From a virus: DNA of 45,189 nt. The notes beneath the pieces are model-generated. The model made no database searches, was not told the origin of the DNA, and saw only the letters and a program-made list of their open reading frames with translations. Location of the stretch: positions 1 through 45,189 of the IMG/VR virus record IMGVR_UViG_3300004369_000035. One strand, 5' to 3'. Each line of letters begins with the position of its first letter. Position 1 is the stretch's first letter. Both the position numbers and the translations under genes were made by a program. Shown here one piece after another: positions 10,188-32,100 of the stretch.

Positions 10188-10190
10188 GTC

Positions 10191-10316: not shown

Positions 10317-10327
10317 GGGTGGGGGGC

Positions 10328-10567
10328 ATGACCACGATGTTCACCGCTAAGGGTTGGCAGAAGACCAACCGTCGCACCACACCCGTCTGGGTACATGTCG
10401 GGCGTGAGGCGGGCGATGTCGTCGTTGAGATTGACACCGATACGGTGCTACTCAACGAGACCTTCGCCGATGTCTCAGACGCTCAACTGTTCGTTCTGCG
10501 TATCACCAAGAACCAGAACCTTGCCGATTGGGTCGCACTCGCCCTACCTGAGGCGGTTGGCGCATGA
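10328..10567 (+). CDS. hypothetical protein, 79 aa
   Basis: Beta-strand-rich (VWVHVGREAGDVVVEIDTDTV) with a helical C-terminus. Unknown. Shares an ATGA overlap with the LysM gene, so it is the first of three coupled genes. Confidence 0.7.
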   Translation: MTTMFTAKGWQKTNRRTTPVWVHVGREAGDVVVEIDTDTVLLNETFADVSDAQLFVLRITKNQNLADWVALALPEAVGA

Positions 10568-12833: not shown

Positions 12834-12862
12834 GCTAGGGGTGCGGTTCTTCACCCCTAGCC
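12833..12862 (+). terminator. strong 11-bp hairpin after the helicase gene
   Basis: GGCTAGGGGTG and CACCCCTAGCC are perfectly complementary around CGGTTCTT. There is no T tract, so either an L-shaped actinobacterial terminator or a bidirectional one serving copy 23 as well. Confidence 0.6.
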
Positions 12863-12934
12863 AATCGGTAGGCACTCTCGTAGGAACCGCCCTATCGGGA
12901 GTGGCGCCCTCTTCGGGTTCGCTCCCTCTCACCC

Positions 12935-12948
12935 TATCGGTCATTATG
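12935..12948 (-). promoter_or_regulatory. orphan start-associated element copy 23 (minus strand)
   Basis: CATAATGACCGATA on the minus strand but no start codon 24-25 nt on. A GTG 16 nt on opens a 37-codon frame running toward the helicase 3' end; otherwise the transcript would be a short RNA ending at the 12833-12862 hairpin. Confidence 0.65.
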
Positions 12949-12973
12949 CGTAACGCGACGGGTTGTTGTTTCA

Positions 12974-12987
12974 CATAATAACCGATA
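12974..12987 (+). promoter_or_regulatory. start-associated element copy 24
   Basis: CATAATAACCGATA, 24 nt before ATG 12998, divergent from copy 23. Confidence 0.75.
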
Positions 12988-12997
12988 CACTGAAAGT

Positions 12998-13195
12998 ATG
13001 AACAACGAACTTATCACCATCGCCAATAAGTTTCTTGGTGAATGGGCAATCATCGCCAGCGACATTCCAAGCGTTGTAAAGTCATTCCGTCGCTACCTGA
13101 ACCTTGAGACTGACTACAGCGAAGCCTTAGACAGCGCGGCGGTTCACGAATGGTTTGCCCACCGCCTCAGCCCACAATGGGCGGGCAATCACTAG
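12998..13195 (+). CDS. hypothetical protein, 65 aa
   Basis: Helical, Trp-containing; no recognised motif. Monocistronic between element copy 24 and a hairpin-rich non-coding stretch. Confidence 0.7.
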   Translation: MNNELITIANKFLGEWAIIASDIPSVVKSFRRYLNLETDYSEALDSAAVHEWFAHRLSPQWAGNH

Positions 13196-13227
13196 CCCTT
13201 CGTAAGGACTTGGCGCGAGTAAAGTGT

Positions 13228-13330
13228 CAGCCCCGACTGTCGGCTCGCATCGGGCTGCGCCTTCACTCAGGGGGGCAGGGGGGGGGCAAGCCCCCCACAA
13301 CCCCCCGTCGTGGCAATTAGGCTTCGCCTA
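13228..13330 (+). other. hairpin-rich non-coding stretch
   Basis: In the gene-free interval 13196-13402: CAGCCCCGA/TCGGGCTG stem (13228-13257), a nested pair of G6 tracts (13270-13275, 13278-13286) facing C6 tracts (13291-13296, 13301-13306) with a CAAG loop, and TAGGC-TTC-GCCTA (13318-13330). Could be tandem terminators or a structured RNA; the G tracts could also form a quadruplex. Confidence 0.5.
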
Positions 13331-13402
13331 GCGGCGCAGTCCCGATGTCGCCGACGAGATGCGTTTACGAACGGGAGTCCCGAGTGGAGAGTTGTGGTAG
13401 CG

Positions 13403-13416
13403 CATAATGACCGATA
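13403..13416 (+). promoter_or_regulatory. start-associated element copy 25
   Basis: CATAATGACCGATA, 25 nt before ATG 13428. Confidence 0.75.
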
Positions 13417-13427
13417 GCGTGAAAGGT

Positions 13428-13616
13428 ATGACAAACAAAACCAAAATCAAAGGATTACCAAGAAGCATAATTCAGCAAGGAAATGTCCTGCAAATCTGGG
13501 TGGAAAGCCCTACTGGTGACAGTTCGGATAGCCAGATACTGGAAATCCGTTGTCTGGATGACGCTCAATGCGCCAACCTATTCACGGCTTGGGTGGAAAT
13601 GGCGGGTCTGAACTAA
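13428..13616 (+). CDS. hypothetical protein, 62 aa
   Basis: Short strand-rich protein (VLQIWVESPTGDS, ILEIRCLDDAQC). Unknown. A tiny GTG frame of 18 codons follows at 13619 but has no independent support. Confidence 0.68.
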   Translation: MTNKTKIKGLPRSIIQQGNVLQIWVESPTGDSSDSQILEIRCLDDAQCANLFTAWVEMAGLN

Positions 13617-13692
13617 TCGTGGCATCGCTACTCACCGTGGTCACCTTGCGTTTCCCAAAGCGCAAAGGCGAGTAAGCGAAATCACCCGACTC

Positions 13693-13725
13693 ACCCAGCC
13701 GACCCCTTCCCTTCCACGGCTGGGT
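13693..13725 (+). terminator. 9-bp hairpin terminator
   Basis: ACCCAGCCG and CGGCTGGGT around a 15-nt loop, followed by GGGTTTC, between the 62-aa gene and element copy 26. Confidence 0.55.
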
Positions 13726-13763
13726 GGGTTTCGGGGCTCCGTTGTCTCAATGTGAAACAAGTA

Positions 13764-13777
13764 CAAAATAACCGATA
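13764..13777 (+). promoter_or_regulatory. start-associated element copy 26
   Basis: CAAAATAACCGATA, the only copy with CAAAAT; 24 nt before ATG 13788. It would drive the SSB operon, and its weaker hexamer may lower expression. Confidence 0.7.
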
Positions 13778-13787
13778 GGATAAAAGT

Positions 13788-14030
13788 ATGAGCGAAATAA
13801 CCAAAGAAGAAGCGCAGTTGCTGGTGACAAAGCATCTCAGCAAATGCATACAAGAGTGGGCTGGCGGAGAAGGCACAGAAGAAGACCAAGAAGCAGGCGA
13901 CGAATTTGCCCGTTTGGTCATTGACGCATTAGACTTACAAGTAGTTGCAGTTGAGCACCTCGGAGACGGTGGGGCTTACACTGCACGAATAAACCTAATC
14001 ACGACAACCAAGGAAGCGAGTACCAAGTAA
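13788..14030 (+). CDS. hypothetical protein upstream of SSB, 80 aa
   Basis: Acidic helical N-terminal half (KEEAQLLVTKHLSKC), then a strand segment. Stop TAA overlaps the ATG of SSB (TAATG), so the two are translated together. Function unknown; a replication-associated role is only suggested by position. Confidence 0.72.
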   Translation: MSEITKEEAQLLVTKHLSKCIQEWAGGEGTEEDQEAGDEFARLVIDALDLQVVAVEHLGDGGAYTARINLITTTKEASTK

Positions 14031-14494
14031 TGGCAACAGCAACACTTACAATTTCGGGGAATGTCACCAACGACCCTGAACTCCAAATCACGCAAAGCGG
14101 GGCTGGCCGTCTTTCGTTCGGAGTAGCAGTCAACTACGGGTATACAGATGCCCAAGGCGAGAAGCAAGAGAAGACCTCGTACTTCAATGTCACCGCATGG
14201 CGTTACTTGGCGGAGAACTCAGCACGCACACTTGAAAAAGGTATTGGCGTTGTCGTCACAGGTCGCCTTGAACAGCGTTCGTACGAAGACAAAGAAGGCA
14301 ACAAGCGTTCAGCAGTGGAACTGATTGCCGAAGAAATCGGCATTGCAACACGTTCGCTGGAAAGCGTTGAGCGCCGTGCCAAGCAGGAAAACGGTGGCGG
14401 TCAGCAGTCTCGCCCAGCATCATCGGCCCCGCGTACACGCCCAGCAACAGCGAAAGTCGCAGTGGGAGTAGAGCCTGAGGGCGAGCCGTTCTGA
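14030..14494 (+). CDS. ssb: single-stranded DNA-binding protein
   Basis: 154 aa. N-terminal OB fold of bacterial SSB type: TLTISGNVTNDPEL, FGVAVNYGYTD, SYFNVTAWRYLAENSARTL, KGIGVVVTGRLEQRSYEDKEG (residues 1-105). A low-complexity Gln/Gly/Pro linker follows, and an acidic tip EPEGEPF replaces the usual DDDIPF while keeping the terminal Phe that recruits partner proteins. Protects ssDNA during phage replication. Expressed from element copy 26 with the 80-aa gene. Confidence 0.95.
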   Translation: MATATLTISGNVTNDPELQITQSGAGRLSFGVAVNYGYTDAQGEKQEKTSYFNVTAWRYLAENSARTLEKGIGVVVTGRLEQRSYEDKEGNKRSAVELIAEEIGIATRSLESVERRAKQENGGGQQSRPASSAPRTRPATAKVAVGVEPEGEPF

Positions 14495-14694
14495 ATCGAA
14501 TCCGCACGTCCGTCTTGTGGTTCGTCTACAAACGTTTTGACGACATCTCCACGTGGTTTGGATTGAAATCCTTGCGTATTGTCAGGAAACTGAATAAGCA
14601 AGACCCAAAGCACACGGATAAACGATGGGCTAGGGGGTCACAGTGGGCTGGAATGTACAACCAGAAGTCAAAAGCGTCATGGGGTTCCGACTGA
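14491..14694 (+). CDS. basic hypothetical protein, non-ATG start
   Basis: Open frame beginning CTG 14491 in a CTGA overlap with the SSB stop, behind GAGGGCGAG; a stop lies five codons upstream, so no ATG is available. TTG 14515 is the alternative. The product is basic and Trp-rich (RWARGSQWAG). The frame and position argue for a real gene; the start is unsure. Confidence 0.42.
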   Translation: MNRIRTSVLWFVYKRFDDISTWFGLKSLRIVRKLNKQDPKHTDKRWARGSQWAGMYNQKSKASWGSD

Positions 14695-14757
14695 GTACTG
14701 CTTCGTTAATCCAATCCTGAGAGTTTGGAACGGGGCCCTCAACGTGAAAAAGGAAAA

Positions 14758-14928
14758 ATGAAATACGTCAGGTGCCTAGCAAAGACGATTAAGGGCGAGC
14801 AATGCAAGAATGGGGCCATGTGGGGCACCACTTGTTGCGGTACCCATCAAGACCAAATCCAAGTTATTTGGGATAAACCCATGAACGTTCTGAGCGCAAA
14901 AAAATCTGGTGCGACTCCCAAGACTTAG
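14758..14928 (+). CDS. small Cys/His protein, DUF5763-like
   Basis: 56 aa. RCLAKTIKGEQCKNGA then CCGTHQDQ resembles short proteins with the pattern RCxAxTKxGxxCxxxA...CxxH, seen in phages and mobile elements. Probably one zinc site. ATG 14758 has an AAAAAGG ribosome-binding site 5-6 nt upstream. Its stop overlaps the stop of the convergent gene at 14925, marking the border between the plus-strand arm and the minus-strand block. Confidence 0.65.
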   Translation: MKYVRCLAKTIKGEQCKNGAMWGTTCCGTHQDQIQVIWDKPMNVLSAKKSGATPKT

Positions 14929-15227
14929 TACTTAAAGTCCTCTGGGTTGGCGTCTTTGTTCCGTTGGAAATAAAGTGAGTGCGCCCTATCAGGGTCGCTG
15001 TGTGTCTCATTCATGTAGTCGAGTGCTTCTTTGACGAGGCTCCCATACTTGTATCGGGCCGTGTCGTGTCGCCACGCCTTTATCAATTCTCTGTAGCGAC
15101 GCCTAACTTTCTTTTTCGTGAGTGGCGGGAAATTGGACAATTCGCCCAGAAGTATGTGCTCCTGCTCACGAGGGGTGATGTACCAATCCCCGTCTTTGTC
15201 TACTTCGTTTGGGTCCCACTGCGTCAC
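14925..15227 (-). CDS. hypothetical protein, 100 aa
   Basis: Last gene of the leftward block. Helical and charged; KKKVRRRYRELIKAWRHDTARYKYG resembles a J-domain-like or HTH helix but without an HPD motif. It overlaps the DUF5872-like gene by ATGA. Confidence 0.72.
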   Translation of the reverse strand: MTQWDPNEVDKDGDWYITPREQEHILLGELSNFPPLTKKKVRRRYRELIKAWRHDTARYKYGSLVKEALDYMNETHSDPDRAHSLYFQRNKDANPEDFKY

Positions 15228-15712
15228 GATTTGGCCCTGTACTTCTTTGCAATCTTAGCGACACTCTCGGTGTTGCGCACGAATTGCTTGCCGCCTTGCA
15301 ACTTCTTTTTGTTTGTGGCAGCACGTTGTGATGGGGTGAGACGCTTCCATACCCTGTCTGGCAGGTAGCGCCGCATCTTGCCGCCCCGCCCTGCAGGTTT
15401 GCCATCAGAAGTTCTCCAACGCTGACGAGTCCACTTCTTTAGCGAACGCTGTTGTCGTGTGCGCTTGCCCGTACGATAGCCACCGCCCGCTTTGCGGTAT
15501 TCCTGTGCAACCATCTGCGCCTTGCGAGCAGACCATTGTCCAGGTCTGCCACCAGACGACCCAGCCATAATGCGACGCTTGATGCTCTCACGCAGGGCTG
15601 GTTTGGTGTAGTTACCGTCTTTGTACTCGAGCGGGGCGTTGGCCAAGAAGTCTTTGACCGAATCGTTCACCCACTTTTGGGTGCGCTGGCTATTTCTTTC
15701 TTCTCTGTACAT
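15224..15712 (-). CDS. DUF5872-like protein
   Basis: 162 aa, very basic. The conserved stretch YTKPALRESIKRRIMAGS then GGRPGQWSARKAQ, EYRKAGGGY, SLKKWTRQRWRTSDGKP, RYLPDRVWKRLTPSQ and GKQFVRN matches my memory of the DUF5872 family, found in giant eukaryotic viruses, phages and some bacteria; no biochemical function is known. High Lys/Arg content suggests nucleic-acid binding or packaging. Its first 23 nt overlap the 66-aa gene. Confidence 0.82.
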   Translation of the reverse strand: MYREERNSQRTQKWVNDSVKDFLANAPLEYKDGNYTKPALRESIKRRIMAGSSGGRPGQWSARKAQMVAQEYRKAGGGYRTGKRTRQQRSLKKWTRQRWRTSDGKPAGRGGKMRRYLPDRVWKRLTPSQRAATNKKKLQGGKQFVRNTESVAKIAKKYRAKS

Positions 15713-15890: not shown

Positions 15891-16222
15891 GGCAATTTGT
15901 CCAAATCTTCTTTGTATCTCACCTTTAGGTCGGGATACTTATCAACCATATCGTTGATGGCGCGAACGATATCCACCAGTTTACGCTTTGATTGGCGCTT
16001 ACGGCGCTCGTATTCACTCCCTGTTCGCTCCATTGTGGACTGCTCATCGTCCTCGTACCCACGCGGCGGGGCGCCCGTGATGTCAAGGGCAAAACGAAGC
16101 AGATTATGGAAATCTTCTCGTTGTCTGGAGGTTGGCGACTGCTTAGTTGGCTCGTATGTTTCCGCTTCTTTTAGGATTTCGGCGAGTTCCACACCATCCA
16201 TTGAGTCTATTTTCTTAACCAT
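15887..16222 (-). CDS. hypothetical protein, 111 aa
   Basis: ATG 16222 lies in an 8-nt overlap with the 3' end of the giant gene (ATGGTTAA), indicating translational coupling. An apparent longer reading into the giant gene is rejected because it would use another frame of that gene. Sequence MVKKIDSMDGVELAEILKEA with a basic middle (YERRKRQSKRKL). Function unknown; probably a late protein made with the polyprotein. Confidence 0.75.
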   Translation of the reverse strand: MVKKIDSMDGVELAEILKEAETYEPTKQSPTSRQREDFHNLLRFALDITGAPPRGYEDDEQSTMERTGSEYERRKRQSKRKLVDIVRAINDMVDKYPDLKVRYKEDLDKLP

Positions 16223-19200
16223 TTGCGGTTTGCTCCATCTCTCTTCTCGAACGAAGGGTTGCTTCATACATTTCGTCAACGCTACCAACGAGTTCGTGAT
16301 ATTCGGACACGACCATACCTTGCTGTCGGAGGGTGAAGCCCATCTTTTCCCAGTACGGCCTACTGCTGTCGGTGGTCTCCAGGAACACTTTCTTTCCATT
16401 CTTGCCCGTGGAATCCTCGAGTACTTTCTGGAACAAGAAACTCCCCATTCCCTCAACATTTTGGAAACTGACCAAATAGTCAACGTATGCCATGCGCCCC
16501 GTGATTCTGTCTTCTGGCGGAAGTGAAGTGGCATCTCCTCCTCTTTGCGACGGGATGCCTGGCGCCTCAAAGGTCACGTCTACACTCAGGAAACCCCACA
16601 TGGCCATTCCAGCAAGCGTTCCGTCGGCATTCTTGATGATTACGTACTTATTATCGTACTGGTCTCCTCTTGGGCGAGCGGAGTTGGCCTGTAGGTTTCT
16701 CATCATTAGGCGTGCGAGTCGGTTCGCTTCCATGCCTCTGTTGATTACCTCTTCTTTTCTGTCAAGGTCTTCCAACTGTTCTTCAATGTCGCCAAATTTC
16801 CATTCGTCCCTGAAGGGCAATTTGCCCTCATCCTGCATTTTTTCGAGTCTGTAATACCGTTCCTGCAAGGCTAACCGTTTGTCCTCTAGCATCTCAAGTG
16901 CTCGGTCGAGTTTTCTATCGGTGCCATCCAGCAGAAGATTGACTTCGTCAAACTCTTGTTTGCTGAACTCACTTTCTTTCTTGATGTTAATCTCAATACC
17001 TTCCAGTGATGCCCGTGCTAATTCTGCACGGAAGCCGACACCTTCCAGTTCGACCTTTACTGGGTCACTAAGAGAGATGTCTCTTCGCGACGGTTCGCCA
17101 ACCGAACGAAGCGACCCTGATGGGCGCAGTGTGCTCTTCTGTCTGTCGACCGTGTTCGACGCGGCCCCGCTAGAACGCAGGCTGCTGCTTGATGCTTCCG
17201 TGCGTTGCCATCCAATGTCAGACGGTTCAATGCGCACGAATGGGTCCCATGGCGTATCGGTGAACATCCTTGAGATGTGTGGGTCATCCTCATTCAACGG
17301 GTCAAGACGCAATGCCCGTAACACCTCTGGTGTAAGGTCTCGCTCCATCGCTTCTTGTAATTGTCTTTGTGTACCTGAGGAAAGGGGTCTCTCTTCAAAC
17401 AATTGCGTTTGACTAAGGCCAGTAATTATCTCCGCCTTTTCAATCTCGTCAATTGTTGGGTCGTCTTGAACACTCGTGATGATGTCGTTGAGGAACCTGT
17501 CCATGTCGCTTCTTTTTGCTTCTGTTTTACCGCTCTTGGAGCCCGTGACGGAAACAAGGCCAGAACTTTCCAGTAAGTCTCTGGTCTCTTTGGATAGGGA
17601 GTCATACAAATCTCTTTGTTCCCTTGTCCACCTTAGGCCAAGACCCTCTTCCATGGTCATTCTGTCAAAGAAGTCAGACTGAACTGCTTGGCTATCTACG
17701 AAGTCGCGCCAGAACTCGGGGCCCATAGTCGCGTAAGGCCATAAGTTTGACATGAACTCACCATGTCTGGTGAATGCCTGCCCTAACACGAAGTGTCCTA
17801 TCTCATGGGGCCCGCTATTGAGTGCGTCGGAATCGGTGAGTCGTGGCATGTTGCGCGAGCCCAAACGCATGGACATGAATGCGCTCAATGCAATTTCAAA
17901 CATCGAAAGCATCGAAATTTCAGATGCTGGTGAGCCATTTTGGAACATGTCATTAGTTCTCGTCGCTGCATTCACGAGTTTTTGGAGTCTTTCGGCTACT
18001 TCGCTCTTTGAGAGCCCTTCTGATTCTCGCAGCAAGTGGACAAATCGCTCCCCGAGTCTTTCGTACATCTGGATATGGCTTTCAATTCGCTTAAGTTCCA
18101 TGAATACCATGTTTTCCATGTGGCGGCCAGCAGGAGTTGGAGCGAATTCCATCATCTGCGCGTGCTCGCGCGCCTTGGCGAGGTGAGTTCTAATTGCAGT
18201 CAGGCCGCTCGTTACATTTAAGGCGTTTTCTCCTTCTTCGGCGAATTCGTTTTCGCGCCGTATGGAAAAATCTGTGACACCAACCGCATTAAACATCGCC
18301 TCTACAACAGCATCATTGGTACCCGAATACCCGTCTCTGCCCTGGGCCAACATTTCCACCAGATATCTAGGGCTTTCTGACTGACCCTCTTTTCTTTCTG
18401 CCAATTTCCTGTTCACCGACATCACCAAGTTTCCTCTGGTGTCGTAGTAGCGCACAAAATCTCCGTCAAACTTTGGGTCGCCGAAAAGCATGAACGACTC
18501 GTATGAGCCGCTTTCGCCCTTAAGGTCAGACCCAACCCTGCTGACGGCCCCGTTGTCATCACGTGATTCATAAGCGCCAAACATCTTGTTTAAACGATTG
18601 ACCGTTCGTGCCCACGCGCCGTGGATACTGGCCAGACGCTCGTATGTGGGCGCACCCATGGCGCGAATCATGGCTAAGTCAACTTCGTCAACAAGAACGT
18701 CGGCAATTTCTTCGTGAACAGGCCCATTGATTTTCTTTACTCTGTGGCCTTCAATGGCTTGGATACCCCAGCCTGATTGAGCGGCAATCTTGGCCGTCTC
18801 TTTGACTATTTCCTTGAGCACCTCTCTATCTTCGTCAGTTAGTGGCTCTGGCAACATCTCGTCCAATGGCATACGACTACCGAAACCAACTTCAATTTCT
18901 TTATCGGAATTATCAATTATGTCTTGTAGTTGGTCAATACTGAGCGGGTCTTGTGGTGACAGGAGAAGGAACATAACTCTGCCGTATTTCCCGTCAATCA
19001 TGAGGTCTTGTTCTTTTACGTCGTACTTGCCTAGTCGCTCAAGTAGCCGTGAGTGGAAGCGGTCTCCTCTTGGAACACTTGGTCGTTCAGGCGGGGCCCC
19101 ACGTGATGCAAGTCCCTGTGAACGCAGGTTGACACCACGAATCATTGGAAGTTTGGCACCGCGCCCAGACGAGCGAAGTGTCAACACATAGTCGTCATCT

Positions 19201-22200
19201 GCGAGGTCTGGTCTGTGCGGTTCAAGCAATCGCTTTGCTGAATTGAGTGCGTTGTCCCTTTCTCCCTCGTAAGGTGTGCTACGAGCAAGTCGTGCTGACG
19301 CAATAATCTTCCTCCACACTTTGAGTGGAACCCCCTTGGGCACCCGTGAGGGCTCGGAGGGTGTTGCGTCAATGAGCGCCTCTTCGTATTGGGCGTTGTA
19401 TTCCTCGCGAAGAAGGTCATCGTGACGTGCGCTCCATGTCTGCCTTTCTCCTCTTGTAATGTCTTTGATTATGTCCCTAAACTCCATTTCACGAGCGCTA
19501 AGTTCTGGTCTGGTGAATAGATACCCGCGCTCTTGATTCTTGCGCCAACTTTCGTATTCTGGGTCAAAGAATGAACGGTAGATTTCCTCAAGCGCCCTGT
19601 CTGCATACAAATCTGCGTCTTCGTCTCGTGCATAAAGGGTTTCGTCGATTTCGTCCATTTCCCACCTGATATCGAATTCGTCGTCAAGAAGGTCTTGTAG
19701 CAACTTGTGGCGCATTGATATTTCCGATTCAGGTATTGCTTGTTCCTCGAGTTTGGCTAGTAGGTCAGCAAGTTTGTTCCTGTAATCCTCGGGTACGTCT
19801 TGGGACGCGGGTTCGTTCAGGAACTTTCTCAACGCGAGTATGAATCCTTGCTCTTTCTCCCATTCCTCGATGACGTCATTAACGGTGGCGATATCTTGTG
19901 CGATGGAGTCGGAGAAATCCTTCATGTCCATTTCTTTTTCGGTTTTCAAATCTGTTCTATCGTTAATCTCCTGAGTGATTGACGCATCTAGTTCTGGCGT
20001 TAGTTCCCCAGCCTCGTCTAGTTCGATGAACCTGCTTTCAAGTTCCATGATTTCGTCATCGAGTTCTTCAATCTCGTTTGATAGTTCTTTGTAACCTCTC
20101 ACCCTTCGAGAAAGGTCAAGCATGTATTCGCCCTTTGATGAGCCAGGCAACATCGGGTTGGGTTTGCGTCTTTCTTCACGCCCACTTCTCCAAGCCTTTA
20201 GCCTCTTTGCCAAGTCGGTGTTACCACTACTTCTCAGTGAGGTGGACGGTGGGTTTATTCCGTAATCTTGTCTTAGCAAACGGCTGTACGAACGAGACTG
20301 AAGTCGTAGTGGAGTTATGTCGAGTGGGTCGTTCATGCGCAACAACGTCGGGGCCCCGTCATCACCGAGCATCATTGTCGTGGCCACTCCACTGCTGCGT
20401 AACGAGCGAGGGTTCCGAGGGGTTACGGTTATGCCCGCGATTTTGCTGATGTCCGCCAGCGAAAGTGGTTCGTCGACCATTGTCAAGGCACCTCTGTTGA
20501 GCACGGCAATTCGCTTTCGTGTTTCGCCAGCACCCGTTTCGTCAAGGAAGTCATAACCAAGCAGTGTCGCAATTGTTTGCTTTCTACGCTGAATGCCTGG
20601 CTGTGAAAGCCCTTCAGTCAACAGTTTGGATATCCATTTAAATTGCTCCTCAATTTTGTCTCTGTCCGTATCATTCGCTGCTCCTCTGAGCATTGTGAGG
20701 TGGTCGGCAAAACTTCCAAATATCGCACGCATGTCCGATTGTCTTGCTTCTGGAAAGTATTCGTCAAGAAACTTTACAAAGTTTTCGTCGTGGAGGATGA
20801 AAACGTCTTTCCCTGTTTCTCTGTCTTTGACTTTGATGTAGATGGGTCGGCCCCTATGGGTGAACCTATCTGCGTTGAGCAAGTCTTCTCCAGAAATAGC
20901 CATCAATTTATTAAGGGCGTCTTTCGCGTCACTTCTGGTTTGCGTGACCTCGTCACTTGTTATCCATTTTGCATTTTGGTCTGTGACCCCCAATAGCCCG
21001 ACTTTGTTTGTTGCTGGGTCAACCGATGGGTCGTTGGGGTCGGCAAAACGTTCCACGTATTCCCCAGGCGTTGTCGTAAATATTGGGTCAAAGGTGAATC
21101 GCTTATCTTCGTTATCCCATTGCCTACCCCTCGTTGCGTGCAAGAAATTGCCAGCCGTTTCTATGAGTTGAGGAACATCGCTTCTACGCCGTGAGTCTTG
21201 ACCTATGCCTACGAGCACGAAAGACTCCAATGTGAGTGCTCTGCGTCGTATCAGGGACGGGGCGCTGCCAACGTCTATGAGTTTGGGAAGAGCGTCTCCG
21301 CCAGCAATTTCGCGAGCCAAGAGCGTCTCTGAGGTGCTGATGGCTCGAGTAGTTGTATCATTCGTTGAATTGTCGCGCAAGGTGGACAAACGAGATACCC
21401 TGGCTACAACTTCTCGTGCATCAATTCTGTCGCTGTCAGCAGCGTAAGAAGCACCCGTATTCCATGTCATTGGAAGGAACATGTCCATGGGGCCACCCTG
21501 GCTACGTTCCTCGGCTATTGCGATTCTTCGTGCGACTACGGCTCCAGTTGGGTCTTCGTCGTCTATGACGAAAGAGGGGAGATAGTCGGGGTCATCATTA
21601 TTCGAATTATCAAGTTGTATCTTGAACGTTCCCTCGTAAACACCTCGGAATAGACCCTTCCATTCTTCGAGTTGCGCGTTACTCATTTCGGACGTATCAA
21701 GAAGATTTGCCAACATAACCATGTTGGCTCTTCTTGGTTTTTCGGGGTCACGCTGTTCATCTTGAATTGCAAGCGCCAACCAAAGCGCCAGACGTTCGCG
21801 TAATCGCTTGTCGCTATCCGCTAAGTTGAGAGAAGAACCGCCTAAATTTGTGTACCTAATATTGCCTTCTCTGTCGATACGGCCAGCAATGAGTTTTTCA
21901 AATCCAAGAGGGGGTGGGTATGTTGACTCTCTTGTCTTTTGGTTAGGCGAAGTTGCGGCAATGATGAATTCCACGGCCTTTCTGAGTTGTGTGTAATTAA
22001 CTGCCGAGCCTGGGTCGCGCCCGTTTTTATCTCTGGCTGTATGGAACCCGTGACGTGGCCAAACAATCGGGCCATCGTTGGCTGCAGATAGCAGAACCTG
22101 AGTTTCTGGAACTTGCTTCCACCACTGCCACGAATGCTGATTGATTATCGTTGCTGCTCCGCCGCCCGCACCCTCCATGTTTATGTTGGAGTGCTCAACT

Positions 22201-25200
22201 GTAATCACTCCATTATTGACCGACACAAAGCGATTGAAATTGCCTACGAACACGTCACCGCGACGTACTTCGCCCGCAAACCCGAATTGCTGATACTTCA
22301 GGTCGGGAGCAAAGCCTCTATCGGCATAGAATTCTGGGGAGGAAAGTCTGAAAAAGAATTTCGGTTCACCTCTGTATGGGTCTGAAAAGACGGTGAGTGG
22401 CGTGTCACTGGAAGTAAATGTTTGAGGGTTGTTGGTATCTATCATGTAGGCGCGTGAGCCAACTCTCATGAAATCCCTTATGCCCGCTAAAACTTCTCGT
22501 TCTTCATTGGTTAGTGAAACTGTAACGCTCGCGACTAAATCTCCTCTTTGCAGACTGCCACGTCGGATTACGAGGCCATCTGCCCCACGTGAGCCAGTCA
22601 CGGTGTACGGCATGGTTACCTCTAGTTCGCCCCTTGCAATAAGAAGGTCCAATTGCCTGCCTGTAAGACTGCCAGAATAACCCTCAAAGCGTGCTGCTGC
22701 CGCTTCTCTCTCTTCGGGATTGGAATTTGGGACCCACTGCACTGCGTCCGTACGCCCGCCCAACAGTGCCGTGTCCATGAGGCGTTCTTTCATTCGTTCA
22801 ATAATGTTGCTCAAGACTTCTTGTCTTCGCTCTGGGTCTGACGACACAAACTTACTGATTGCTTCTGCGTCCTCTCTCCATGGCTTGGAGTCTCCATACA
22901 TTTCTCGTAGTGATTCGCGTGCTTTGTCCAGCCGTCTGTCAACTTGGTTCTGCAGTTTTTCGCGAACCTTTGCCCGCAGCGCTGTCACTATGTTTCTGGC
23001 CGACTTAGAGCGCTCGCTCGTGTCGCTGATGAGGTTATCTATTTCGTCATCAACCTCGCTCCCAAACCCACTTGAGCCAGATGAACGTAAACCAGAAATT
23101 TGCTTGCTTATCTGCGCTCCGTCCATGCGTCGCGCAAGGTCGACCTCCATGCGCTGCTGTTCCTGTTGGGTGTAGCGAGGTTGTGGTGAGCCAAACTTGC
23201 GCATTGCGCCTGGTTTGTCGGAGAACCTATCAACGGGGCGCATGGCGTCATGGCGTGGGTCGTATGTTTCTACATGCTTGAGTGTCGCCGTGACCTGCCC
23301 GTCGACCCTGTCTAGCGACACGACCTCAAACGTTCCCTGTGTAAGAAACTGTCCATCCAGAACGTCGATTGCTTTGGCTCCGCGTTGTATGCGGATGACC
23401 ACATCGCCCGCATCAACGCTCGGGCGCGTGCGCGAGAAGGCAGTGATTGGCATTGGGATGCGCTCGCCCACTTCGAGCCCTTCCACAAATGTACGTGGGT
23501 CTACTTTGACCACTCGATACAAGTCGTTCTTGTTTGGCGTTGCTGACTGCACCGCTGAATGTATGTGCGTGACGTTCTTCAGCGCTCTTTCTATGCGAGT
23601 CCTTGACGATTGTGGCAGGTCTGCAATTTGACCAGTGACCAGGCCTCGTAGCATGCCTCGGTCTGATTCTGATGTTGTTGCGTACGTGGGCATGTCATCA
23701 ACGAACATGCCGAATTGTGTTGCCGACATCGCGCGCATCATGTCGCCGTCGTGTGGCCTGTTGCGGTTTACGAACACCCGTCCAGCAAGAAAGCCGACCT
23801 CAGCACGATACCGAGGGGTAAGCGCTTGCGAATAGGGGACGCCATCGTCGTAGAAGTGATAATCACCGATGGCCAGCGTGCGTGCACGTGCCCTGAAGTC
23901 CGACACGGTGATGGGAGTATCAAACGCATAGAGGCGCTCGTCTGTGTCCAGCCCGATGTTGCTGGCACCAGAGCGCAAGCGACTGCGCTCGTCTGCGTCG
24001 AACCGCATGAAACGTGACTGCACATTGCTGACGCGACCCTGTGAGCGTGATGTGCTTCTTAGCCCGTCTGGACCACGTCTTTCTTCGGGGAGAATCGTGC
24101 GAATTGTGGAGGTTGCTTCTATCGACTCGGTTTCATCAAGGTATGCGTTGCGTTCAGACACTCCACGTGCCGTGTTTTTCTTTCTTCTTCGGAAAATGGT
24201 GATGCCGTGTTTTTCTTCCAGCGGACCATCTTTATCTCGACGCATGAAGAACGTGTTCAGAAGGCGAATCATTGCGTCGTTGTTCATGAACGGGAGGTTT
24301 TTGAATTGGCTGAGGAAAGCACCAACCGCACCTTCCGCAATTCTCTCTGATTGCAATGTTTGCCCGTATTGTGTTCTCACGTACGGCTCGTCGCTGGTTT
24401 TGGCAGCCTCGGCGACTCTCTTTCTTTCTCGTCGCAAGTCTCCGCCTTGTAGTTTGTCTCCGTCGTGTGCGTGCAATCTTTGCAGCAAACCACCTGGCTC
24501 ATACCCAGATTGCTGGAGTTGCTGAAGCGCAAAGAGGAAATCATCTTCCATTTCTTCTCTGGTGGAGTATCCACGACTTTCGTAATCGTCGAAGTCGATT
24601 ATTTTGCGATGCCGTGGGTAGTCGGTTTCGTTGAGCCTCCATCGTCGCCCTGAAACTGGGTCTATTGGACTGCTCTGTTTCCACAAATCCGCCCATGAGG
24701 TATTCCCATATCTGCCAGGGGTAATTCCGAGTTCTTTTTGGATTTCCCCAAAAGCCTGCCTCGCTAGTTGTTGTGCTTCGCCTGGCGTTGCCCCCCTAAG
24801 TATGAGGTTCTTCTCCATTTCGGCGAATCGACGCTCAAGTATTCGTAGCGCCTCGCCTTTTGCCAATTCGTCGTACCAGTGAACCCATTCGTGAAAAATT
24901 GTTGCTCCACTTCCCATGCCGTACATCGATGAGTATCCAGGGCTGGTATCGACAATTCCCTCTTCTGCTTTTACTGGGAAAAGTATTCCGTTCACAAGCG
25001 ACATCATGTCGATTTGTAGTACCCCTGTACCCTGATAATACGAACCCCCAATACCCTGCATCGACGTTGCTCCGAAAAGCACTGTCGGGTCATTCGCTCT
25101 GTCGTAGAGGTTCGTGAGCGCAACGGCGCCATCGTCGCTCCGCATTATGGGCGCCAATCTGCTCAAAGAATAACCGAGTACACCATTGGCCTGTCGAGGG

Positions 25201-27098
25201 AAAAACCTCTCGAGTATTTTTGGGGTTTTTCGGTTGCGACCCTGCCTTTTTTCCGCCTGTTCGAACGCCATCTTGCCATTCAGGAAAATGTTGGCTTTTT
25301 TGAGTTTGTCAAACACATCACGCAATCTTCTTTTCCCTCTTTTGGACTTGTCTGTGATGAGGTCGGGCGTAACCACCACATCATTTGGAAGGTCCATGTA
25401 GTCGCCTGATGAAATCGGGTGGATGATTCGTATGGAAGGAACACCAAACTCCCGCCACAGAGCCAACACCTGTGGATTGCTGCGTAGCATTTCTGCAACT
25501 GCCACCCGTGCGAGTTCTAGCGTTTGGGGGTCCGATGTGTGTGGCATGGAGCCTTGGACAATGTTTTCTACTGCTGACCTCATGTCTGGCCACTCGTTAT
25601 GCTCACCTCCGAGAACACGGTTTGGCAGCATTCTGTCGGCTGTTGGGTCGTAAAACGTCTCGCCAGGGAATGCAAAAGGCAGTGCCTGTTGCACGAGTGG
25701 CTGTTTTGCGGCGATGTCGTATCTCGCCTGCACTTGTTCACGACTTGGCAAGTTTCCGTCTGTGCCATCACGGGTGATACCCCTAGTGACCATTGCATCT
25801 TGTTTTGCCGCCCAATCGTAGTAGTCATTGGCGACCATGACCATTATTTCTTTTGCCGTCATGTTTTGCGAGTTCCAGGAACGGCGAACCACTTTGTTTA
25901 GTTCATGTTCTGCCCCTCTGACTCGGCTGTAATCTACTCCCCAAGATTGCTTGTGTTTTTTTACTGTGTCTGGAGCAAGGATGTTTGAGAAAAATGCTGG
26001 GATAAAATTGAGCGTCGGCAATCGCGCTTGTCCATTGCGGTCAACTGTCGTAAATAATTGAGCGTCTCTTTTTGTGTTCATGAGTGCCGTGTAAAGTTCA
26101 CGTTTCCATGCAGGCACGTTGGGGTCGGCGAGCATCTCCGAAACAAAACGCCTCTGAGACACTGAATCCAGGGGTGTCATGACGGGAGTAGTGAGTGAGT
26201 CACCACGTGGCGGTGGGAAACTGGATTCGTTCTGGCCGCCTGTGTCTGGCGTTCCCAACAACAACGAATGAACTACTGCATCACCAATAAGTTCTTTCAT
26301 TCGGTCTGCTAGTCGTTCTCTGTTCCTGTGCATGTCTTCGTCAAAAGCACCCGTACCGTGTTTTTCGTCGTACGCCTCTTTTACTGCTTCGTATCCATCT
26401 CTTACGTTCATCAGACGTGCCAAGTGCGTCGCAGCGACATTCCTTGCGGTCTCATACGCCTGCTGTGGGTTGGGTGCGTCTGCGTAGTCATCTGGGTGAC
26501 CAACGATTGAGGCGATGGCATGTTCGTCTGATTCCTTGCCTGGGGGGCGCACTGCTAGTTCAGCCAACTCCTCTGGGGACATGTCTAGGGTGGAGCCTCG
26601 TTTGCGATGGTCTTTTTCTGCGAGTTCCTTCGCTCTGTCTCTTGGCGCTGTGGAAGTGCCCGTGGCGGCTTGGCCAGTTACCTGCGGCTGCGTGGAGGTG
26701 ACGTCATCCTGTGTGTCTTGTTCATCGGGTGCGCCATCCTCGGGTGCGACTTGCCTTGGTGGCGTTTCATCGCCACTTGACCTGAGGCTTTCTCTTCTTC
26801 TCTGCCTGCCATCACTAGGCGCAATGCTGCGTGCTTCATCACGGACATTGAGTGACTCAGCCTGTGCTGTAATGGCGCTTGGCGCTATCTGTGCGCTGAC
26901 TACTGCGGGTCTTTCCCAAGGTGAGCCGTCTTGTATGAGACCATCACCATCGCCGTCAAATGCGTTGGGGTCAAACGCCTCTACTGCGCCGCCTGCACTG
27001 CGAACTCTTTTACCTATGCTGCTGCCTAGTGTTCTGAGGCGACGACCTAGGCGATTGCCTGCCTTTACGTCAAGTTCATACTTTTCGGTGTAATCCAT
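16215..27098 (-). CDS. giant multidomain protein, 3,627 aa, probable polyprotein
   Basis: A single uninterrupted frame. Residues 41-66 contain FDPNAFDGDGDGLIQDGSPW, a calcium-loop-like motif (DGDGDG, 48-53) that I recall from actinophage capsid-protease/MuF fusion proteins. Residues 70-180 are low-complexity. HEWVH (736-740) and HEIGH (3098-3102) are zinc-metallopeptidase HExxH motifs. Residues about 1194-1256 look like an ADP-ribosyltransferase core (FSRT, then QFLTQGTFEV), but the catalytic Glu appears replaced by Gln. Coiled coils lie near 2330-2470 and 3385-3450. A GNAT acetyltransferase-like domain closes the protein (about 3480-3600, with VEGMGSFLFQKVLE and PYWEKMGF). Six exact LRSSG motifs (105, 1337, 2233, 2288, 2641, 3307) and five variants mark domain borders. 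Likely a virion or in-head polyprotein. Start follows a GCAGGT site; -10-like GATAAT 52 nt upstream. Confidence 0.85.
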   Translation of the reverse strand: MDYTEKYELDVKAGNRLGRRLRTLGSSIGKRVRSAGGAVEAFDPNAFDGDGDGLIQDGSPWERPAVVSAQIAPSAITAQAESLNVRDEARSIAPSDGRQRRRESLRSSGDETPPRQVAPEDGAPDEQDTQDDVTSTQPQVTGQAATGTSTAPRDRAKELAEKDHRKRGSTLDMSPEELAELAVRPPGKESDEHAIASIVGHPDDYADAPNPQQAYETARNVAATHLARLMNVRDGYEAVKEAYDEKHGTGAFDEDMHRNRERLADRMKELIGDAVVHSLLLGTPDTGGQNESSFPPPRGDSLTTPVMTPLDSVSQRRFVSEMLADPNVPAWKRELYTALMNTKRDAQLFTTVDRNGQARLPTLNFIPAFFSNILAPDTVKKHKQSWGVDYSRVRGAEHELNKVVRRSWNSQNMTAKEIMVMVANDYYDWAAKQDAMVTRGITRDGTDGNLPSREQVQARYDIAAKQPLVQQALPFAFPGETFYDPTADRMLPNRVLGGEHNEWPDMRSAVENIVQGSMPHTSDPQTLELARVAVAEMLRSNPQVLALWREFGVPSIRIIHPISSGDYMDLPNDVVVTPDLITDKSKRGKRRLRDVFDKLKKANIFLNGKMAFEQAEKRQGRNRKTPKILERFFPRQANGVLGYSLSRLAPIMRSDDGAVALTNLYDRANDPTVLFGATSMQGIGGSYYQGTGVLQIDMMSLVNGILFPVKAEEGIVDTSPGYSSMYGMGSGATIFHEWVHWYDELAKGEALRILERRFAEMEKNLILRGATPGEAQQLARQAFGEIQKELGITPGRYGNTSWADLWKQSSPIDPVSGRRWRLNETDYPRHRKIIDFDDYESRGYSTREEMEDDFLFALQQLQQSGYEPGGLLQRLHAHDGDKLQGGDLRRERKRVAEAAKTSDEPYVRTQYGQTLQSERIAEGAVGAFLSQFKNLPFMNNDAMIRLLNTFFMRRDKDGPLEEKHGITIFRRRKKNTARGVSERNAYLDETESIEATSTIRTILPEERRGPDGLRSTSRSQGRVSNVQSRFMRFDADERSRLRSGASNIGLDTDERLYAFDTPITVSDFRARARTLAIGDYHFYDDGVPYSQALTPRYRAEVGFLAGRVFVNRNRPHDGDMMRAMSATQFGMFVDDMPTYATTSESDRGMLRGLVTGQIADLPQSSRTRIERALKNVTHIHSAVQSATPNKNDLYRVVKVDPRTFVEGLEVGERIPMPITAFSRTRPSVDAGDVVIRIQRGAKAIDVLDGQFLTQGTFEVVSLDRVDGQVTATLKHVETYDPRHDAMRPVDRFSDKPGAMRKFGSPQPRYTQQEQQRMEVDLARRMDGAQISKQISGLRSSGSSGFGSEVDDEIDNLISDTSERSKSARNIVTALRAKVREKLQNQVDRRLDKARESLREMYGDSKPWREDAEAISKFVSSDPERRQEVLSNIIERMKERLMDTALLGGRTDAVQWVPNSNPEEREAAAARFEGYSGSLTGRQLDLLIARGELEVTMPYTVTGSRGADGLVIRRGSLQRGDLVASVTVSLTNEEREVLAGIRDFMRVGSRAYMIDTNNPQTFTSSDTPLTVFSDPYRGEPKFFFRLSSPEFYADRGFAPDLKYQQFGFAGEVRRGDVFVGNFNRFVSVNNGVITVEHSNINMEGAGGGAATIINQHSWQWWKQVPETQVLLSAANDGPIVWPRHGFHTARDKNGRDPGSAVNYTQLRKAVEFIIAATSPNQKTRESTYPPPLGFEKLIAGRIDREGNIRYTNLGGSSLNLADSDKRLRERLALWLALAIQDEQRDPEKPRRANMVMLANLLDTSEMSNAQLEEWKGLFRGVYEGTFKIQLDNSNNDDPDYLPSFVIDDEDPTGAVVARRIAIAEERSQGGPMDMFLPMTWNTGASYAADSDRIDAREVVARVSRLSTLRDNSTNDTTTRAISTSETLLAREIAGGDALPKLIDVGSAPSLIRRRALTLESFVLVGIGQDSRRRSDVPQLIETAGNFLHATRGRQWDNEDKRFTFDPIFTTTPGEYVERFADPNDPSVDPATNKVGLLGVTDQNAKWITSDEVTQTRSDAKDALNKLMAISGEDLLNADRFTHRGRPIYIKVKDRETGKDVFILHDENFVKFLDEYFPEARQSDMRAIFGSFADHLTMLRGAANDTDRDKIEEQFKWISKLLTEGLSQPGIQRRKQTIATLLGYDFLDETGAGETRKRIAVLNRGALTMVDEPLSLADISKIAGITVTPRNPRSLRSSGVATTMMLGDDGAPTLLRMNDPLDITPLRLQSRSYSRLLRQDYGINPPSTSLRSSGNTDLAKRLKAWRSGREERRKPNPMLPGSSKGEYMLDLSRRVRGYKELSNEIEELDDEIMELESRFIELDEAGELTPELDASITQEINDRTDLKTEKEMDMKDFSDSIAQDIATVNDVIEEWEKEQGFILALRKFLNEPASQDVPEDYRNKLADLLAKLEEQAIPESEISMRHKLLQDLLDDEFDIRWEMDEIDETLYARDEDADLYADRALEEIYRSFFDPEYESWRKNQERGYLFTRPELSAREMEFRDIIKDITRGERQTWSARHDDLLREEYNAQYEEALIDATPSEPSRVPKGVPLKVWRKIIASARLARSTPYEGERDNALNSAKRLLEPHRPDLADDDYVLTLRSSGRGAKLPMIRGVNLRSQGLASRGAPPERPSVPRGDRFHSRLLERLGKYDVKEQDLMIDGKYGRVMFLLLSPQDPLSIDQLQDIIDNSDKEIEVGFGSRMPLDEMLPEPLTDEDREVLKEIVKETAKIAAQSGWGIQAIEGHRVKKINGPVHEEIADVLVDEVDLAMIRAMGAPTYERLASIHGAWARTVNRLNKMFGAYESRDDNGAVSRVGSDLKGESGSYESFMLFGDPKFDGDFVRYYDTRGNLVMSVNRKLAERKEGQSESPRYLVEMLAQGRDGYSGTNDAVVEAMFNAVGVTDFSIRRENEFAEEGENALNVTSGLTAIRTHLAKAREHAQMMEFAPTPAGRHMENMVFMELKRIESHIQMYERLGERFVHLLRESEGLSKSEVAERLQKLVNAATRTNDMFQNGSPASEISMLSMFEIALSAFMSMRLGSRNMPRLTDSDALNSGPHEIGHFVLGQAFTRHGEFMSNLWPYATMGPEFWRDFVDSQAVQSDFFDRMTMEEGLGLRWTREQRDLYDSLSKETRDLLESSGLVSVTGSKSGKTEAKRSDMDRFLNDIITSVQDDPTIDEIEKAEIITGLSQTQLFEERPLSSGTQRQLQEAMERDLTPEVLRALRLDPLNEDDPHISRMFTDTPWDPFVRIEPSDIGWQRTEASSSSLRSSGAASNTVDRQKSTLRPSGSLRSVGEPSRRDISLSDPVKVELEGVGFRAELARASLEGIEINIKKESEFSKQEFDEVNLLLDGTDRKLDRALEMLEDKRLALQERYYRLEKMQDEGKLPFRDEWKFGDIEEQLEDLDRKEEVINRGMEANRLARLMMRNLQANSARPRGDQYDNKYVIIKNADGTLAGMAMWGFLSVDVTFEAPGIPSQRGGDATSLPPEDRITGRMAYVDYLVSFQNVEGMGSFLFQKVLEDSTGKNGKKVFLETTDSSRPYWEKMGFTLRQQGMVVSEYHELVGSVDEMYEATLRSRREMEQTANG

Positions 27099-27149
27099 AC
27101 CTGCGGCGTTCTATGAGTGGGCAACGACATTGCGCCTTACGACACATAG

Positions 27150-27543: not shown

Positions 27544-28022
27544 TGTCGAAGGTGCTTGGGCAGTGGCTTGGGCAGTGGCCTGTACAACTTGATGATGTCA
27601 TCCACTGAGTCGCCAGTTGACATTTTCTTGAAGCCTTTTTCTCGGTCATAGAACGCCCAATCGATTTCGGTGATTTGTAGTTCATTGACAACACGGTAAA
27701 GAGTTTCATACACGTTTAATCCACTACAGGTGTAGATATCAAATTGAATGTGTGCTGGTTGTGGTTCGTCCCATACATGCAATGCGATATGGGACGTTTC
27801 AATCATCACTACTGCTGTCAGTCCCTTGTTGCCAGGCTTGTTGACGTAATGAACAAATGGGCCCGCGATTTTGTGCATTCCGATTTGCTCTACTAGCAGG
27901 GTGAGCCACTTTTTCATTCTTCTTTTGCTTGTGAGCGTCGACTTATTGGCGCAGTTGGCCATACTCTTGGCGTTAATCAGCAGGTGATTGTGCTGAGGCT
28001 CTCTCCTGTCATTGTCTTTCAT
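27540..28022 (-). CDS. S-adenosylmethionine decarboxylase-like protein
   Basis: 160 aa. The core segment IETSHIALHVWDEP followed by FDIYTCSG matches the prokaryotic SpeD signature: the Ser of SHI is the pyruvoyl precursor, followed by the catalytic His and Cys positions. The reaction would give decarboxylated AdoMet for polyamine synthesis. An N-terminal HNHLLINAKS strand and a C-terminal Lys/Pro-rich tail flank the core. ATG 28022 is chosen for its AAAAGGAG site in the upstream gene; a longer frame to 28085 lacks one. Could be a divergent phage member with another role; self-cleavage is untested. Confidence 0.72.
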   Translation of the reverse strand: MKDNDRREPQHNHLLINAKSMANCANKSTLTSKRRMKKWLTLLVEQIGMHKIAGPFVHYVNKPGNKGLTAVVMIETSHIALHVWDEPQPAHIQFDIYTCSGLNVYETLYRVVNELQITEIDWAFYDREKGFKKMSTGDSVDDIIKLYRPLPKPLPKHLRH

Positions 28023-28260
28023 CCTTGTACTCCTTTTTGACAAGTGCCAAGAGTAGTTCTTGTGCCCACTCACAGAACGTAACAACTGTCATTGCTGGGT
28101 CGCAATCAAGCGTTAATAGGTGGTTGTAAAGGATGCGGTTATTGATGAAGTCGCCCCTGAATACCAGCACAGTGTCTCCACCAGACCACTTGCATGTCCA
28201 AACATCTTTGCTGTCACCCAAAACATCCAGTGCCACTTCGTGGCTGTCTACAAAATGCAT
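28009..28260 (-). CDS. hypothetical protein, 83 aa
   Basis: Mixed alpha/beta (VLGDSKDVWTCKWSGGDTVLVF). Its leader carries the CCAGAAACGGAG motif, which both belongs to the repeated operator-like element and provides the ribosome-binding site. Overlaps the SpeD-like gene by 14 nt. Confidence 0.7.
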   Translation of the reverse strand: MHFVDSHEVALDVLGDSKDVWTCKWSGGDTVLVFRGDFINNRILYNHLLTLDCDPAMTVVTFCEWAQELLLALVKKEYKDERQ

Positions 28261-28269
28261 TGCTCAACT

Positions 28270-28293
28270 CCGTTTCTGGTTAGATTTATCTAA
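28270..28293. promoter_or_regulatory. TTAGATTTATC operator-like repeat, copy 2
   Basis: Minus-strand TTAGATAAATCTAA is a perfect inverted repeat with a 2-nt centre, followed by CCAGAAACGG, directly before the 83-aa gene. Confidence 0.6.
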
Positions 28294-28802
28294 AGTTCAC
28301 TCATCTTATTTGCCTTGTTCTTGTGCAAGCGCCAGGACTTCTCCATGCGTTCGCCCTGCTGGGCAATTTCGTATCCGTGAGCCCAACACACCGCCCTGTA
28401 ATTCACCCCAACCCAGCCGTTTTCTGGGTTTCGCCGTGTTCGATGGCGCAGGCCGTCCATCAGCAAAACGTAGACGGCATCTTGGTCGTCCCAATCTGAC
28501 AAGCGAAGCATATTGTTGCCGAATGAGTAGCGAACTTCCCATCCTGATACATCTTTTACCGTCTTGAATTTGTTGACATGAGGGACAAAGTCGTTCATCC
28601 CACACATGCGCGCGAAGGCAAGTTCGGCGCCAGCGCATACTGCATGCTGCCACATCTCCCAAACTTCGCCCTCGTAGTAGTTGCGGTTGCGTTCAGGTTG
28701 AGCGAACATCGGCAGTTGTCGTTCATATCCGATACGTGCAACAGTTGCTTCTTCTTCTGGAGTGAGCGCATATTCAAAAAATGTTGGAATGATGGTCGTC
28801 AT
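28290..28802 (-). CDS. conserved phage hypothetical protein, 170 aa
   Basis: GAELAFARMCGM, then DVSGWEVRYS, LRLSDWDDQDAVYVLLM and GWVGVNYRAVCWAHG: an arrangement I recall from actinophage proteins with a PD-(D/E)xK-like nuclease fold (E...D...ExR). Assignment is tentative; no complete active site can be asserted. Own operator-like repeat 17 nt upstream. Confidence 0.68.
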   Translation of the reverse strand: MTTIIPTFFEYALTPEEEATVARIGYERQLPMFAQPERNRNYYEGEVWEMWQHAVCAGAELAFARMCGMNDFVPHVNKFKTVKDVSGWEVRYSFGNNMLRLSDWDDQDAVYVLLMDGLRHRTRRNPENGWVGVNYRAVCWAHGYEIAQQGERMEKSWRLHKNKANKMSEL

Positions 28803-28818
28803 AAACTTAAACTAATCC

Positions 28819-28842
28819 CCGTTTCTGGTTAGATTTACCTAA
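28819..28842. promoter_or_regulatory. TTAGATTTATC operator-like repeat, copy 3
   Basis: Minus-strand TTAGGTAAATCTAACCAG then AAACGG, 17 nt ahead of ATG 28802; one mismatch from copy 2 in the palindrome. Confidence 0.6.
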
Positions 28843-28844
28843 TT

Positions 28845-29162
28845 TCATCCCCTTAATCTAGTGTCGCACTTCAAACAAAACTCGGCCCAAGGGTAATAAC
28901 GCCTTTGGTTGACTGGATGTGAACATTCAAGGAGTTCAGTTGCCCTTGCGTTGAGTAAATCTCTAATGAACTGCGATAGGGGTACGCCTTCTTTTGCTGC
29001 CGCTTGCTTCCAGCGGTTTCGTTCTGGTTCGGTCGTGCGGATTAGGACCTGTTTATCTGCAGGGCCGTCATCATTCTTGCTTATCGTCGACACCGTCGGG
29101 TTGAGCGTCTCCGTCACCTTGTCCATCGCCGCTTTCAAGTTGTCTTGGTTCTGTTGGTTCAT
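28845..29162 (-). CDS. RHH protein with C-terminal Cys/His motif
   Basis: 105 aa. Residues about 37-72 form a ribbon-helix-helix: VLIRTTEPERNRWKQAAAKEG then LSQFIRDLLNA. The C-terminal CSHP...CLKC could bind zinc. Start uncertain: ATG 29162 overlaps the HTH gene by 92 nt, while ATG 29126 gives 56 nt. Likely DNA-binding regulator. Confidence 0.75.
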   Translation of the reverse strand: MNQQNQDNLKAAMDKVTETLNPTVSTISKNDDGPADKQVLIRTTEPERNRWKQAAAKEGVPLSQFIRDLLNARATELLECSHPVNQRRYYPWAEFCLKCDTRLRG

Positions 29163-29757
29163 TTTCTACCACCTCAGCATCGATAATAGGTGCTTGTCCA
29201 AGCATCTGGGCGACAGTTTCTCGAGGCAGAACTCCAGAGACGGCCATGAGTTCCAACAACTTCTTGGCTTCAGATTCTGGGTCAAAGGAGTTGATTTGCT
29301 TGGGCATTCCATCCTGACCAGCAAGAGTTGCTCGGATTGGTGTTCCCTGAATACTTTGTTGCACATCGGCGGAAACGTTGATATTCGTTTGCTCCATGCC
29401 CAAAAGTTTTGAGCGCCTATCCATAATCGCCAACACCTGCTGCACGGCCTTCATGTCTGGCTCGACGGAGACCTCCGTTCCGTCATCCAGTGTTACCTTG
29501 CGATGCTGGGTGAGTGGCCATAGGGCCGACTGCATGGCGTCGAGTCGCTCCAACTCCATGCGCAATACCTCTGGGTATGCAAGCGACGTTTCTTTATTGA
29601 GTTTTTCTAATTGTCGCGAAATGGCCAAGGAAACAACCTTGGTGGAGATGCTAAATCTTTTTGCAATTTCCGATACCGCAACCCCAGCCTGGCGCATTTT
29701 AAAAATACGCGAATCGCGCTCCGCGAGAAATTCTTTTGTCATTGGCGTGTTGCTCAT
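29071..29757 (-). CDS. HTH protein, possible small terminase subunit
   Basis: 228 aa. An HTH near residues 15-45 (MRQAGVAVSEIAKRFSISTKVV) is followed by a helical segment LRMELERLDAMQSALWPLTQ and AVQQVLAIMDRRSKLLG. That layout is typical of actinophage HTH/small-terminase-like proteins. The C-terminus is acidic and Gly/Asp-rich. Starts in an ATGA overlap with the primase-helicase. If it is a terminase subunit, the large subunit is outside this window. Confidence 0.65.
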   Translation of the reverse strand: MSNTPMTKEFLAERDSRIFKMRQAGVAVSEIAKRFSISTKVVSLAISRQLEKLNKETSLAYPEVLRMELERLDAMQSALWPLTQHRKVTLDDGTEVSVEPDMKAVQQVLAIMDRRSKLLGMEQTNINVSADVQQSIQGTPIRATLAGQDGMPKQINSFDPESEAKKLLELMAVSGVLPRETVAQMLGQAPIIDAEVVENEPTEPRQLESGDGQGDGDAQPDGVDDKQE

Positions 29758-32082: not shown

Positions 32083-32100
32083 ATTGACCTCCTAGAAGTG

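Follow-up and report, generated by a model that had tools for sequence, protein, structure and literature searches.

A giant, cysteine-free phage protein divided by a recurrent linker motif: a candidate effector polyprotein with a putative protease recognition site

The 45,189-base virus record analysed here (the window) encodes on its minus strand, from 27098 to 16215, a protein of 3,627 codons that is likely to be an effector polyprotein, delivered by the virion of a large actinobacterial tailed phage and cut at a motif in its linkers, with an S78 protease as the likely cutter. An initial annotation had given the frame and length correctly, leaving the strand unnamed, and had read the protein as divided at recurrent LRSSG motifs, with two HExxH motifs in the same chain as the possible protease. 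Five comparative signals, independent of one another, speak for the division, namely sites that keep their positions while their spelling follows the lineage, concerted switching of that spelling, breakpoints within the motif, domains always lying between sites, and the placement of sites in low-confidence linkers, whereas the proposed protease is not supported.

LRSSG is the top pentamer of the giant protein, with six copies at exactly the residues first reported for them (Table 1), where the composition would predict about 0.011; over 300 shuffles of the protein its mean count was 0.0 and every pentamer stayed at three copies or fewer. The five variants were likewise all present, a few of them one to three residues from where they had been placed, and several of the variant sites are degenerate. 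As the six LRSSG copies differ in their codons, their conservation is at the level of the protein and they do not represent DNA repeats, and LRSSG is absent from every other open frame within the window. Alternative genetic codes were considered and are not needed for the giant frame. Searched in full, the chain had no significant domain match in Pfam or PHROGs and no relative by tblastn against cultured phages, and a search with the DGDG tag gave no match. As to the domains first proposed by eye, both HExxH motifs are present and invariant among the aligned orthologs, the ADP-ribosyltransferase (ART)-like region is supported by a fold match of the modelled domain, and the GNAT domain has matches, although weak ones.

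Table 1. Features of the giant protein and their positions in the window.
Feature	Residues	Position	Strand	Remarks
Giant gene (candidate polyprotein)	3,627 aa	16215..27098	-	no cysteine
DGDG tag FDPNAFDGDGDGLIQDGSPWERPA	42-65	26904..26975	-	common to several giant proteins of relatives
LRSSG site	105	26772..26786	-	kept with flanks in L001
HEWVH	736-740	24879..24893	-	HExxH invariant, 7 orthologs
Variant LRSTS	1013	24048..24062	-	G001 GLRSAG, G003 GLQSST, G004 GFNSST
Variant LRSGA	1041	23964..23978	-	from alignment and structure model
ADP-ribosyltransferase-like fold	1054-1280	23259..23939	-	between sites 1041 and 1337
LRSSG site	1337	23076..23090	-	aligned: LRSSG / LRSTG / GLRSTT / GLASST
Segment of unknown kind	1342-2232	20403..23075	-
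LRSSG site	2233	20388..20402	-	from seven-way alignment
LRSSG site	2288	20223..20237	-	orthologs GLRSRT, GLASRR
Probable coiled coil	2339-2425	19824..20084	-	weak matches only
LRSSG site	2641	19164..19178	-	aligned: LRSSG / LRSMG / GIRSHT / GIRSST / GLRSSS
Variant LRSQG	2658	19113..19127	-	G001 LRSSG
HEIGH	3098-3102	17793..17807	-	HExxH invariant, 4 orthologs
LRSSG site	3307	17166..17180	-	G001 LRSSG, G003 GLRSTT
Variant LRPSG	3324	17115..17129	-	aligned with orthologs
Variant LRSVG	3330	17097..17111	-	G001 has ~300 extra residues between sites here
Probable GNAT acetyltransferase domain		16335..16649	-	weak: PF00583 E 0.038; PDB 3fb3 E 0.009

The sites outlast considerable divergence of the protein around them. 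A partial relative (L001), 77% identical, has retained both site 105 and site 1337 together with the flanking sequence, and through the neighbouring helicase gene five further orthologs were reached, of which G001 is 48% identical and 4,117 residues long and G003, G004, G006 and G007 are more distant. In the seven-way alignment, several sites are held at aligned places with letters that differ by lineage (LRSSG, GLRSTT, GLASST), while site 105 is not retained in G001. As the initial annotation had suggested that an alignment might show, the motif is the conserved part of otherwise variable linkers.

Where domains can be recognized in the polyproteins, the sites fall between them. None of 13 Pfam domain instances (S78, RNase_T, sigma70_r4, zeta toxin, NUDIX, ArdC-N, MPTase-PolyVal, KTSC and DUF3626) contains a site and all are bounded by sites, in orders such as sigma70 region 4, site, site, zeta toxin or site, NUDIX, site, zeta toxin. 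Whole cassettes have been gained or swapped with breakpoints within the motif: G019 has one 560-residue cassette more than G012, exactly between two sites, and G019 and G023 are ~89% identical up to site 2010 and unrelated beyond it, the divergence starting inside the site. Hydrophobic residues are depleted around the sites (combined Z -8.3 for 95 sites). A structure model covering residues 660-1640 places sites 1013, 1041 and 1337 in stretches with pLDDT below 50, to either side of a well-folded domain, modelled with confidence, whose fold matches ADP-ribosyltransferases. For residues 2600-3627 the model is poor, of a quality too low for a fold search, and adds little; its five sites are inside low-confidence stretches or border on them. 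Burial of LRSSG inside folded domains, named at the outset as evidence against processing, was thus not seen, the examined sites being in low-confidence linkers. A polyprotein of another relative (G018, 59897-74812) ends with NUDIX and zeta-toxin modules and has AEAGM between them.

Read across genomes, the motif belongs to the phage as a whole and not to a single protein. Each relative repeats one spelling in two to six of its largest proteins, which comprise the prohead-protease fusion, head-module giants and the tape measure, and has it in its small proteins rarely if at all. In G003, a 136 kb genome with a contractile tail, 22 motifs are found in six of the seven proteins of at least 800 residues and none in the 131 smaller proteins; G019 and G015 each have 18 in large proteins against 0 in smaller ones, and the LRSSG head modules of G028 and G026 have 19 and 19 sites in their giants and 0 in small proteins. 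The G003 spelling, GL[ARS]S[STR]T, is used by its S78 prohead-protease fusion, its tape-measure-like protein, its ortholog of the giant gene and head-module proteins of 3,039, 2,206 and 877 residues. Other spellings are GF[AS]S[SRT] (G019, G023), LGSRS (G015), AEAGM (G018), PTASM (G020) and [LF]SSG (G044), each spread over at least two large proteins, so that a table of motifs by genomes is almost diagonal; the exclusivity is imperfect, with one GLRSTS in the window and four loose hits among the small proteins of G044. A set of 79 protease loci added further spellings, the protease fusion agreeing with the adjacent giant protein, and in the last site of the fusion the flank (...PRTE...TWW) is constant while the core is GLASSS, TLRSSG, GARSTS or RLASGR. 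In a quick tree of 37 protease domains, with a hand-assigned and perhaps mistaken label for one row (L146), the motif class switches about eight times, several of these between close relatives. Since unrelated proteins are re-spelt in concert, a common trans-acting partner is needed, and the position of the motif in linkers between exchangeable domains suggests that this partner is a protease, making the motif very probably a proteolytic processing site. The tape-measure-like proteins (G003 9242-14182, G028 958-5751 and G019 10814-15487) have the motif of their own phage near residues 600-700, which suggests that they may be cut too.

The composition of the giant protein resembles that of virion proteins. 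It has 0 cysteines in its 3,627 residues, where ~42 would be expected and smaller proteins have ~11.5 per 1000; the five orthologs reached through the helicase gene have no cysteine either, and the tape measure and other virion proteins of these phages are also cysteine-poor. On delivery into the host along with the DNA, this depletion and the placing of relatives in head modules bear indirectly. The DGDG segment recurs in N-terminal or linker regions of several giants of the same phages. A second tag, CPxG...FTD....C (DUF3721-like), is found in one giant and one protein of 670-700 residues per genome (34600-43716 and 44835-46898 in G003; also in G015, G018, G019 and G020), and contains most of the giants' few cysteines.

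If the chains are cut, an S78 protease is moderately favoured as the enzyme responsible. In every lineage with the start of the head module on the contig (G003, G019, G015, G028, G026 and G044), S78 is fused to motif-bearing polyproteins, and in these six the spelling is common to the protease fusion and other proteins; among them is G028, the relative collinear with the window, whose S78 is encoded at 21123-24488. The surroundings of the S78 H and S are conserved, and the motif lies downstream of S78. S78 was unseen in G018 and G020, whose contigs both end where it should lie. The usual substrates of S78 proteases are the major capsid protein and the portal. Those of these phages were checked and have no such motif, so the giant proteins are likened to S78 substrates and not classed as proven members. 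The capsid N-terminus, nearly identical between a GLASST phage and an LRSSG phage, was tried as a reference for the cut site and set aside, as no motif is there. Also counted against S78 is the presence of the motif in the tape measure, a non-head protein. A motif-free capsid would be accounted for by a cutter of another kind, a HExxH metallopeptidase domain of the polyproteins (two here) acting in trans before or after injection. Such a domain is invariant in the orthologs, every checked genome has at least one HExxH in a motif-bearing giant, and MPTase autoprocessing has been proposed for polyvalent proteins (Iyer 2017, PMC5512222). However, HExxH is missing from most of the relatives' motif-bearing proteins, which means that cutting must occur in trans and that one copy would have to serve them all; moreover, the number and type of HExxH differ among genomes and the S78-bearing fusion proteins themselves carry the motif. 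We consider this cutter unlikely and infer that the S78 fused to the same type of polyprotein is a better candidate than the chain's own HExxH pair.

The concerted switching by itself would be served by any single trans-acting partner, and a motif that is left uncut and serves along the chains as a repeated short signal for binding, be it in packaging or to the scaffold or portal, would be common to several virion-type proteins of a phage, the tape measure included. The placement between domains in disordered linkers and the exchange of cassettes at the sites fit the release of modules better, and the separate DGDG tag already resembles a common address, making a binding signal rather improbable. 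The coincidence of breakpoints with motifs could also be taken to mean that the motif is a recombination seam, a remnant of domain shuffling with no role in the protein, but this is scarcely credible, as the different codons of the copies and the persistence of sites through genome-wide re-spelling, at 48% identity and lower, point to selection at the protein level.

Under processing by a phage protease, the giant protein would consist of folded effectors (HEWVH metallopeptidase-like, ADP-ribosyltransferase, unknown 890-residue, HEIGH metallopeptidase-like and GNAT segments) joined by disordered linkers, each with the recognition motif of the phage's protease, here LRSSG. The N-terminal DGDG segment would mark the chain for the particle and, during particle maturation, the phage protease, with the S78 prohead protease as the leading candidate, would cut every linker in trans, after which the cysteine-free pieces would be packed into the virion and enter the host along with the DNA. 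On balance, the comparisons favour a true polyprotein strategy in tailed phages, in which chains of 2,000-5,000 residues would carry exchangeable effector cassettes flanked by the phage's own spelling, and the protease-motif pair would have been repeatedly re-spelt with all sites in all genes following.

Such an arrangement would combine two known kinds of system. The polyvalent proteins of phages and conjugative elements described by Iyer, Burroughs, Anantharaman and Aravind in 2017 are giant chains that combine zincin, ART, GNAT, ArdC and nuclease domains; the prediction is that they reach the host cell together with the DNA and are processed by embedded peptidases (PMC5512222). Like them, the giant protein is a chain of several unrelated catalytic domains from this repertoire (an ART by fold, two conserved HExxH and a weak GNAT), and its relatives carry ArdC-N, MPTase-PolyVal, zeta toxin and NUDIX. 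A term search of the main text of PMC5512222 returned no recurrent linker motif, in contrast to the lineage-specific motif common to several proteins per genome and the S78 fused into the set seen here. The other kind is the prohead proteases SPN3US gp245, phiKZ gp175 and T4 gp21, which cut many head and ejection proteins, and also themselves, at a short motif (PMC5694885). Their processing of ejected proteins would here be applied to polyvalent proteins, as read from sequence only. In those phages the cuts mainly remove propeptides, whereas here a single chain would be divided into several effectors at up to ~16 sites, the protease belongs to the S78 type, and spelling differs between close relatives. 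The phage P1 Dar proteins (DarA, DarB and DdrB) are very large antirestriction proteins that are targeted to the head by an N-terminal signal and in some cases proteolytically processed, but they come from separate genes and have another protease (Pro), and the excerpted text of their description mentions no repeated cut motif (PMC9024508). Related S78 and capsid proteins occur in cultured actinophages (Streptomyces phage Gilgamesh gp48, Gordonia phage DalanDe gp27) with very large neighbouring or fused proteins of 4,624 and 1,633 residues, and no recurrent motif was found in the cultured S78 relatives, these two included; at the Gilgamesh gp48 entries (L221, L224), the larger is a hypothetical protein a few genes upstream of S78, with no repeated motif. 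A literature search among open-licence papers found no description of the many cuts per chain or of the re-spelling.

If this account is true, the motif would allow the largest proteins of uncultured aquatic phages to be divided into their modules by eye, and thousands of residues that are now unreadable would resolve into separate injected effectors (ADP-ribosyltransferases, antirestriction factors, kinases and nucleases). The lineages would also provide a natural series of protease-site pairs with concerted changes in specificity, by which prohead protease specificity becomes testable.

The window, itself a fragment, encodes a helicase, SSB, primase, WhiB-like regulator, ribonucleotide reductase and tRNA-Arg, and no head genes are found within it. 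G028 is collinear with window positions 27711-41854 at 68-79% identity (89% for the tRNA), and its contig stops ~0.6 kb short of the expected start of the giant gene. Its head genes are spelt LRSSG throughout, as is the head module of G026, which shares a sample code with a contig (L207) bearing the LRSSG form of the giant protein. A search for a single contig with both an LRSSG head module and the giant protein found collinear neighbours only, the on-contig case of a head module with an ortholog of the giant gene being G003, in its own spelling. The host is probably actinobacterial, judging by the WhiB-like gene and by the actinophages in which relatives of the head genes occur. Genome hits were tried as a guide to the host and yielded only two MAG contigs bearing a Gammaproteobacteria title; these do not carry the motif and are probably binned phage contigs, and so uninformative on this point. 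Positions 1-10886 of the window, nearly 11 kb, have open frames all of at most 183 residues, mainly on the plus strand and with a patchy coding signal, and gave no RNA family match. A 17-nt inverted repeat (27107-27123 / 28063-28079) surrounds the sequence immediately upstream of the giant gene, and it is within the region so bounded that the G028 contig ends.
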